DNA from: a bacterium
GTDB taxonomy: Bacteria; ARS69
Length of the DNA: 10,226 nt
NCBI GenBank assembly: GCA_025774865.1
Contig: JALGZO010000264.1
Coordinates: 1-10,226, forward strand
Direction of reading: 5' to 3'
Within the stretch, counting starts at the first letter, position 1. Each line of letters opens with the position of its first letter. The notes under the pieces are model-generated. The model was not told the origin of the DNA, did no database searches, and was given only the letters and a program-made list of their open reading frames with translations. The position numbers were made by a program, and so were the translations under genes. Positions 233 through 2,638 of the stretch are shown here, piece after piece.

Positions 233-250
233 TATTCACGCACTTGAAAT
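222..250 (+). promoter_or_regulatory. Candidate sigma70-type promoter of the AAA+/VWA operon
   Basis: TTGATT (222-227) and TGAAAT (245-250) each match 4 of 6 consensus bases and are separated by 17 nt. Transcription would start near 257, about 30 nt before the small ORF at 286 and about 145 nt before the ATPase start. This is a tentative call from hexamers only. Confidence 0.35.
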
Positions 251-285
251 ATGGACGCAAACTTCCCCATAATTCGACTTCATCG

Positions 286-405
286 ATGGCGAAGTACGCC
301 TCCACTGACCGTAAGTCCGAGTGGTTCGGCGGTCAGACTCGCTTCGATCTGCCATCCGTGACGATCCGGTTCGATCGTCCTGCGGAAGGAGGGACAGCCC
401 CGTGA
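286..405 (+). CDS. Small 39-residue ORF translationally coupled to the AAA+ gene
   Basis: ATG at 286 opens 39 codons ending in TGA at 403-405, which overlaps the GTG start of the ATPase gene (GTGA). The product starts MAKYASTDRKSEWFGG and has a beta-like segment around DLPSVTIRFDRP (residues 22-33). GC at third codon positions is about two thirds, reasonable for this genome. No clear Shine-Dalgarno sequence precedes the ATG. The strong AAGGAGGG of the ATPase lies inside this ORF. It could be a real small protein of the system, a leader peptide controlling ATPase translation, or chance. I do not recognise the sequence. Confidence 0.4.
   Translation: MAKYASTDRKSEWFGGQTRFDLPSVTIRFDRPAEGGTAP
305..336 (+). 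promoter_or_regulatory. Leader hairpin 1
   Basis: CTGACCG (305-311) pairs with CGGTCAG (330-336). CCGA (317-320) pairs with TCGG (326-329) around the loop GTGGT, and 312-316 form a one-sided bulge. That makes 11 pairs in the untranslated leader of the ATPase gene, which also lies inside the 39-codon ORF. There is no T-tract, so it does not look like a terminator. Confidence 0.35.
355..386 (+). promoter_or_regulatory. Leader hairpin 2 abutting the ATPase ribosome binding site
   Basis: GACGATC (360-366) pairs with GATCGTC (373-379) around a 6-nt loop. TCCG (355-358) pairs with CGGA (383-386) beyond a small internal loop. The outer strand ends at the first base of the Shine-Dalgarno sequence (386-393), so folding could modulate ribosome access. 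The role is inferred. Confidence 0.35.
386..393 (+). promoter_or_regulatory. Ribosome binding site that fixes the AAA+ start at GTG 402
   Basis: AAGGAGGG lies 8 nt before GTG 402. This near-perfect anti-16S match decides for GTG 402 over the in-frame GTG at 321, which would add 27 residues that resemble no AAA+ domain. Confidence 0.8.
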
Positions 406-1445
406 TCGTTCCGAAGCTGAAAGCAGGCGAGCAGGTCATCCAGCACGTGGTCGACGCAATCCTGGCGGGGAATCCCGTCCTCCTCATCGGCCGCCATGGC
501 GTGGGCAAGAGCGAGCTCCTCGAGCAGGTCGCGCGGCGCTTGAGGAAGCGCCAGAAACGGTTCGGGTTCATCGCGAAGGATCTGAGCCTCCTCATGCCCT
601 GTGATCTCCTGGGGATCCCGCAGATCCGGAACGGGGTCACCTACTACGCGCGTCCCGCGTGGCTTCCCACGAAAGGGCAGGGTCTTCTCGTCATTGAGGA
701 ACTGGGAGCCGCGCCGGACTTCGTCAAGGTCCCGTGCCTCGAGCTGCTGACAAGGGGCTCGATGGGGGATTGGGTGGCACCGGAAGGCTGGCGCTTTGCC
801 GCATGCACGAACCCCGCGGGCGAGAAGTACCTCGTGGACGACCTGGATCCCGCACTCGCCTCTCGTTTCCAGAGATTCGAGGTGATTGCCGACCCGGTCG
901 AGTGGTGCGAGTGGGCGCGCGGCCCGGGACGGATCCATCCGAAGGTCATCGAGTTCGTCTTGAACTGTCACGGGATCTTCGAGTCCCCGGATTCGAACCC
1001 GCGCAGCTGGACGTACGTCAGTCGGCTCTTGTTCCAGTGGGAGAAGGACGGAATGAAGGACCCCCAGCGAACCCGCGAAGGGGTCGCGTCGCTGGTGGGA
1101 GAAGCGTGGGCGTCGCCGTTCGAGAAGTTCTACACGCAGGGAGAAATGCCCATCACTCCCGAGCAGATCGTGGAACAGTACACGGCCTTCCGTCCCACGA
1201 TGAAGGAGTGGTTCGCGACCGGCCGGCTCGACGTGATCGTCGTGTCGCTCGAGATGCTCAAGAGCTATCTCCGGGACGAGGATCGCTTCGTCGCCCTTCT
1301 CTCGAACGAGAGTGCGAAGGAGCGGGTTCGTCAGTTCCTCTTCGACCTGCCGGCCGACCTGAAGCGGGGCGTGCGGCAGTGGCTGAAGCAGCACGGCAGG
1401 GACGCTCTCAAGGTGCCGCGATCGGAGTCGAAGCAAGCCGCCTGA
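402..1445 (+). CDS. MoxR-type AAA+ ATPase (AAA_5-like)
   Basis: This 347-residue AAA+ ATPase hydrolyses ATP to remodel a partner protein, here probably the VWA protein encoded next. Walker A is GRHGVGKS (residues 30-37). Walker B is LLVIEE (95-100), with Glu where Asp is usual before the catalytic Glu. Sensor 1 lies in ACTNP (134-138) and a candidate arginine finger is LASRF (152-156). The helical C-terminal half (about 170-347) has no other recognised domain. There is no signal peptide, so it is cytoplasmic. The GTG start is set by AAGGAGGG. The TGA stop overlaps the Shine-Dalgarno of the following gene, so the two are co-translated. MoxR ATPases are commonly encoded beside VWA proteins as chaperone-like pairs. 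Family assignment is firm, and the substrate is unknown. Confidence 0.9.
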   Translation: MIVPKLKAGEQVIQHVVDAILAGNPVLLIGRHGVGKSELLEQVARRLRKRQKRFGFIAKDLSLLMPCDLLGIPQIRNGVTYYARPAWLPTKGQGLLVIEELGAAPDFVKVPCLELLTRGSMGDWVAPEGWRFAACTNPAGEKYLVDDLDPALASRFQRFEVIADPVEWCEWARGPGRIHPKVIEFVLNCHGIFESPDSNPRSWTYVSRLLFQWEKDGMKDPQRTREGVASLVGEAWASPFEKFYTQGEMPITPEQIVEQYTAFRPTMKEWFATGRLDVIVVSLEMLKSYLRDEDRFVALLSNESAKERVRQFLFDLPADLKRGVRQWLKQHGRDALKVPRSESKQAA

Positions 1446-1459
1446 AGGAGAACCACGCG

Positions 1460-2638
1460 ATGAAACGGGACACATCCTCGAGTTCGCCACGGCCGGTCCG
1501 ACTCGCGGACGAACAGCTGAGGGCCGCGATCCAGGCGATGATCGAAGCGTATCCGTACCACGCGGCGCTTCTCGCGCCCGAGTGGTTCTCCGAGGACGAG
1601 ACAGTCCAGACGATGGCGGTCTCGGCTCGGAACGGCGAGATCCGCTACTTCTACTCTCCGAAGTTCGTGCTCCGTTGCAGCCCGGAGGAGCTCCAGGGCG
1701 TGCTGCATCACGAGGTGAATCACATAGTCTTCGGGCACGTGTTCGCCAAGCGCGAGGACTACCCGGATCAGTGGGCACGCACCGTCGCGACCGAGGTGAC
1801 CGTGAACGAGTACGTGCCCGAACCTCTCCCGGGGAGCCCGCTCACGCTTCACCAATTCCCGGACCTGCCGCCGAACGAAGATACCGACACGCGCTATCGG
1901 CGCCTGGCCGGAAAGGGGGAGTTCGTTTCGCCGCGAATCACGCTCGACGACCACAACCACTGGGAGGGTGGCTTCCTGACGCAAGCATGGAACCGGGAAC
2001 AGCGGCAAGAGCTCCTCCGGAGATTGCGAAACGTCGGCCCGGACGATCTTCCGGGCCTCCGGCCCCGGTTTCGCATTCCGGGGATCATTTCCGCGCAACG
2101 AGTGGAGAACCTCGGGAAGGCGAAACCTCGCCAGTTGATCCCTTGGGAGCGAGTCCTCCGGGACGTGGCGGGCGGAGCCCTCGAGATCGGCGCGACGTTC
2201 TCGCGTCCCTCGCGGCGCGTGCCAGAGCTCGTCGGCATCGTGCCGGCGGAGATCGTCGAACCGACGAAGCCGCGAATCCTCGCCGTGATCGATACGAGCG
2301 CGTCGATGGATCGTCTCCGTCTCGAGCACGTCGCGGCGGAGCTCCGCCACCTGGCCCGAATCGGTCCGGTGACCGTGATCGAGTGTGACAAGAAGATCCG
2401 GGCGAAGTACGCGTTTCGCTCCGACGTCAAGAAGGTGCACGGCCGGGGCGGCACGGACTTGCGTCCGGCGCTGGAGTCCGCGGTCCTCCGCGAGACCCGG
2501 GCGCGGGTGGTCGTCTACTTTACCGACGGCGGGGGAGAGGCCCCGTCGAGCCCGCCCCGCGTACCGCTCATCTGGTGTCTCACGCCCGATGGTAGCCAGC
2601 CGGCGAAGTGGGGACGCGTGGTGAAGATGGCGGCCTGA
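1460..2638 (+). CDS. VWA-domain protein with HExxH metallopeptidase-like N-terminus (DUF2201-type)
   Basis: This 392-residue protein has two parts. The N-terminal half carries HEVNH (residues 84-88), an HExxH zinc site, followed by FGH. An ATEVTVNEYV stretch (110-119) may supply a further ligand. This is the layout of the putative metallopeptidase domain in DUF2201-type proteins. The C-terminal half (about 272-392) is a von Willebrand A-like domain with an intact metal-ion-dependent adhesion site: DTSAS (278-282), the Thr of GGTD (330-333) and the Asp of FTDGGG (354-359). There is no signal peptide or membrane segment. The start is ATG 1460, 9 nt after GAAGGAG (1444-1450), only 14 nt after the ATPase gene, so an operon is very likely. 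The family suggests a zinc-dependent partner driven by the ATPase. Protease activity is not demonstrated. Confidence 0.87.
   Translation: MKRDTSSSSPRPVRLADEQLRAAIQAMIEAYPYHAALLAPEWFSEDETVQTMAVSARNGEIRYFYSPKFVLRCSPEELQGVLHHEVNHIVFGHVFAKREDYPDQWARTVATEVTVNEYVPEPLPGSPLTLHQFPDLPPNEDTDTRYRRLAGKGEFVSPRITLDDHNHWEGGFLTQAWNREQRQELLRRLRNVGPDDLPGLRPRFRIPGIISAQRVENLGKAKPRQLIPWERVLRDVAGGALEIGATFSRPSRRVPELVGIVPAEIVEPTKPRILAVIDTSASMDRLRLEHVAAELRHLARIGPVTVIECDKKIRAKYAFRSDVKKVHGRGGTDLRPALESAVLRETRARVVVYFTDGGGEAPSSPPRVPLIWCLTPDGSQPAKWGRVVKMAA

Follow-up and report, generated by a model that had tools for sequence, protein, structure and literature searches.

A 39-codon reading frame overlapping the start of an AAA+/DUF2201-VWA operon: a possible coupled leader ORF or a chance frame

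The short frame and the operon that it precedes

The window, by which we mean the whole stretch of 10,226 nucleotides that was analysed, is one entire contig of a bacterial genome assembly that has 785 contigs. Its positions 1-114 are identical to the final 114 bases of another contig (C52), and the two contigs therefore probably join there. The 5' end of a divergent gene lies on the minus strand (positions 3-89, start at 89), carries a Pfam Sugar-bind (SorC-type) domain and has its remainder on C52; this gene is the upstream neighbour of an operon on the plus strand. The intergenic region between them holds two perfect 7-nt dyads, GATGTCA-N10-TGACATC at 159-182 and GACCTAA-N10-TTAGGTC at 209-232, with equal 10-nt spacers and 50 nt apart, which are possible operators, perhaps for the divergent SorC-type regulator.

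The operon encodes a MoxR-like AAA+ ATPase of 347 residues (402-1445, plus strand; AAA_5), the closest phage family of which is phrog_1297 and the start of which agrees with that of its relatives. After a 14-nt gap follows a gene for a 392-residue protein (1460-2638, plus strand) that combines a metallopeptidase-like half (DUF2201_N, HEVNH) with a VWA-like half (DUF2201, DTSAS). Profile searches found 52 relatives of the ATPase with 29-44% identity, mostly from Myxococcota and Planctomycetota, and a DUF2201-VWA gene adjoins the ATPase gene in most of them, with HExxH present in 45 of 47 relatives and DxSxS likewise in 45 of 47. Scanning specific peptides over 84,980 species genomes yielded no relative, and a close ATPase was absent from the four other genomes of the same family that were compared. 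The PHROGs family of the partner protein, phrog_1314, is labelled HNH endonuclease, which misfits the DUF2201 domains and motifs that we found.

Adjoining AAA+ and VWA genes with a Walker A motif and a MIDAS-type DxSxS motif are also features of the MoxR AAA+/VWA pairs NorQ/NorD (PMC9976466) and RavA/ViaA (PMC3893208). Unlike in those systems, the VWA partner here is a DUF2201 protein with an HExxH metallopeptidase-like half, and the pair groups with phage families phrog_1297/1314 and with pairs from Myxococcota and Planctomycetota.

Immediately before the ATPase gene, the sequence-only reading had pointed out a 39-residue ORF that ends in a GTGA overlap with the ATPase, contains the ATPase ribosome binding site and lacks a Shine-Dalgarno sequence of its own, and our analysis bears out all three observations. 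The ORF occupies positions 286-405 of the plus strand, from ATG 286 to TGA 403-405, and its predicted product is MAKYASTDRKSEWFGGQTRFDLPSVTIRFDRPAEGGTAP. Its stop codon shares a 4-nt GTGA (402-405) with the ATPase start codon GTG 402, an RTGA arrangement, with the stop codon TGA of a small ORF overlapping the RTG start codon of the gene that follows. The Shine-Dalgarno sequence of the ATPase, AGGAGG at 387-392 on the same strand, lies within the ORF 9 nt 5' of GTG 402, while a search for such a sequence upstream of ATG 286 found none. The frame stays open upstream as far as TTG 244, which would give 53 residues.

Predicted promoter, composition step and probable leaderless genes

A sigma70-like promoter match, TTGAAA-N18-CATAAT (244-273, plus strand), agrees with the consensus at 10 of 12 positions; it is a consensus match only. 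It ends 12 nt upstream of ATG 286, its -10 hexamer begins 18 nt upstream of that codon, and it predicts a transcript start at about 280, some 5 nt 5' of ATG 286. With such a start, the ORF would make up nearly the whole mRNA leader.

The base composition changes at the same place. The GC content steps from 38% to 60% at the start of the ORF, the largest step among 78 leaders, and the best change point falls at 284-288 (2-lnL interval 251-317), with 2 of 1000 permutations producing one as strong. Upstream of it, positions 122-285 have 40% GC (7 in 100,000 windows) in a host genome of 66% GC and form the A+T-richest stretch of such length in a 566-kb sample; the wider stretch 100-285 likewise ranks first for A+T content in that sample.

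Leaderless mRNAs are likely to occur in the host organism. In a sample of the host genome (G000) made up of L115-L194 and the window, a TANNNT motif at -11 to -14 precedes 9 of 96 genes without a Shine-Dalgarno sequence (2.0 expected, p 1.8e-4) versus 1 of 184 genes that have one. The -10 element of the ORF, at 18 nt, is more distant than the 12-14 nt of the host's leaderless genes. The 4-nt overlap is the commonest same-strand junction in the genome (60 of 300). We found no Rfam family at the locus, and the predicted folding of the leader RNA is unexceptional (z -1.4).

Chance expectation, coding signal and relatives of the peptide

The combination of length and overlap is real and is not rare. 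When the whole leader was shuffled by dinucleotides, 5% of the shuffles had an ATG-initiated frame that was 39 codons or longer and closed at the TGA of the ORF, a figure that rose to 20% when the two composition segments were shuffled apart. Moreover, ATG frames of at least 39 codons with the same overlap type were present in 8 of 65 other leaders, which were drawn from 566 kb of the same genome and defined by an upstream gap of at least 150 nt and an NTGA start; these genome-wide counts are approximate, since the genes were called by a simple custom script. By itself, therefore, the overlap is weak evidence for a gene. Most of the eight comparable frames have strongly negative coding scores.

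Codon tests trained on the host genome gave mixed evidence for coding, with weak signals. In the shuffle test, frame 0 of the ORF tops all six frames with a lead of 5.7 in log score; real gene starts have the same lead on average, and 0.4% of stop-free shuffles matched it. The codon score, -0.84, is low, ranking at the 3rd percentile when compared with the first 39 codons of real genes. The GC content by codon position is 59/59/69%, versus 66/42/84% for the ATPase. The joint likelihood ratio for coding versus stop-free gap sequence is about 1.7, a conservative value because the gap set that served as the null probably includes some missed genes.

The 39-residue peptide gave chance-level matches or none in Pfam, NCBIfam, PADLOC, PHROGs, PDB, phages, plasmids and 145 genomes. 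Nothing resembling it precedes the ATPase relatives at 80 loci, among which the nearest ATPases are about 44% identical. Alignments upstream of the ATPases of two relatives (L087 and L070; z 3.4-3.7) were rejected: the frames in which they fell are not those of the genes actually present upstream, and z averaged -0.3 across the 80 loci. Moorella phage MTATph1 has a 37-residue ORF ahead of its ATPase gene, which was judged by eye to be unrelated to the peptide. The predicted structure of the peptide, a bare hairpin with a pTM of 0.27, was uninformative. This lack of homologues is compatible with a lineage-specific ORF and gives zero positive support for a conserved component.

In four relatives, a conserved protein of about 100 residues that has no Pfam family is encoded just 5' of the AAA+/DUF2201-VWA pair (L070, 3660-3983; L084, 3618-3905; L087, 3517-3816; L089, 3564-3863). 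These proteins are 54-57% identical, share the motif GWIKTY.G.HS.LY and come from Planctomycetota, a Sandaracinaceae MAG and an unclassified bacterium. The gene in L070 overlaps that of the ATPase by 4 nt. The protein is a real candidate for a third component of the AAA+/DUF2201-VWA system. A likeness between our peptide and its N-terminus was seen by eye and then rejected, as a profile of the protein scored 81% of shuffled peptides and not the peptide itself.

A possible coupled leader ORF or a chance frame, and what either would mean

The likeliest reading of the locus, barely and at just short of even probability, is a near-leaderless upstream ORF that is coupled to the ATPase through re-initiation. 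The AAA+/VWA operon would be transcribed from the promoter at 244-273, beginning about 5 nt upstream of ATG 286, and some ribosomes would load on this near-leaderless ATG and translate the 39-codon frame. Termination at TGA 403-405 would leave them atop the ATPase start, and the same or newly bound ribosomes would re-initiate at GTG 402, aided by the AGGAGG located inside the frame. What would count is the act of translation itself, through coupling and an open leader, and not the peptide. We infer each of these elements, namely the transcript start, the translation of the ORF, the coupling and the absence of a peptide function. The ATPase has a strong Shine-Dalgarno sequence of its own, which argues against coupling, since it makes coupling unnecessary. 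Also against this reading are the low codon score, the small joint likelihood ratio, the GC content by codon position, the distance of the -10 hexamer from ATG 286, the missing Shine-Dalgarno sequence of the ORF and the failure to find any conservation.

Almost as probable is that the frame arose by chance in an untranslated leader of about 120 nt, and that translation is confined to the ATPase, whose own Shine-Dalgarno sequence directs it. The equal frame lengths and overlaps in other leaders, the yield of the shuffles, the low codon score and the missing Shine-Dalgarno sequence and homologues all agree with this account, whereas the lead of frame 0 over the other five frames and the siting of both the GC step and the promoter at the start of the ORF speak against it. 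The sequence-only reading had also proposed that the ORF encodes a leader peptide or a third, small component of the AAA+/VWA system. A leader is possible, given the promoter, the GC step, the frequency of 4-nt junctions and the leaderless genes of the host. A third component or regulator, as a functional small protein specific to this lineage, is unsupported and improbable: its position in the operon would suit it, and the protein of about 100 residues in four relatives indicates a slot able to hold a partner, but the peptide is unlike that protein, no other homologue was found, nothing alike precedes the ATPase at the 80 related loci and structure prediction gave a bare hairpin. Less probable still is an ATPase that starts upstream or is fused to the ORF through frameshifting. 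In the ATPase frame no stop codon intervenes between GTG 321 and GTG 402, but an ideal Shine-Dalgarno sequence serves GTG 402 and the proteins of relatives start at the same alignment position (MVSLPVG... vs VIVPKLKAG...); we rejected the fusion, as inspection of the junction revealed no slippery heptamer.

The preferred reading, a coupled upstream ORF, fits the anatomy of the locus and has precedents; the fit is almost as good for a frame that arose by chance in an untranslated leader. Coupled small RTGA ORFs on leaderless transcripts have been documented in Mycobacterium (Shell et al. 2015, PMC4633059), and a further precedent for coupled upstream ORFs is available (PMC12548453). As in Mycobacterium, a short ORF here lies at or near a transcript start, in our case a predicted one, and runs by an RTGA overlap into an annotated gene. 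Unlike in that system, the 5' UTR is predicted at about 5 nt and not 0, and no conserved orthologue of the present ORF was found at the loci of the distant ATPase relatives, whereas frame conservation has been seen for some of the mycobacterial members. In E. coli, 5'-terminal uAUG ORFs stand ahead of genes led by a Shine-Dalgarno sequence (Beck et al. 2016, PMC4965119); the likeness lies in an AUG near the 5' end of the mRNA and a main gene with its own Shine-Dalgarno sequence, but our AUG is by prediction not at the extreme 5' end.

Since we found no relatives of the ORF and its coding signals are weak, it is at best a coupled leader ORF of an ordinary kind, and it may be a frame that occurs by chance within an untranslated leader. 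If it is untranslated, it counsels caution, in that 4-nt overlaps alone do not mark small genes in G+C-rich leaders. If it is translated, it would represent no new system; it would be one more coupled upstream ORF starting the first gene of an operon, in a sparsely sampled bacterial phylum, and would join the hints of leaderless mRNA use in that phylum.
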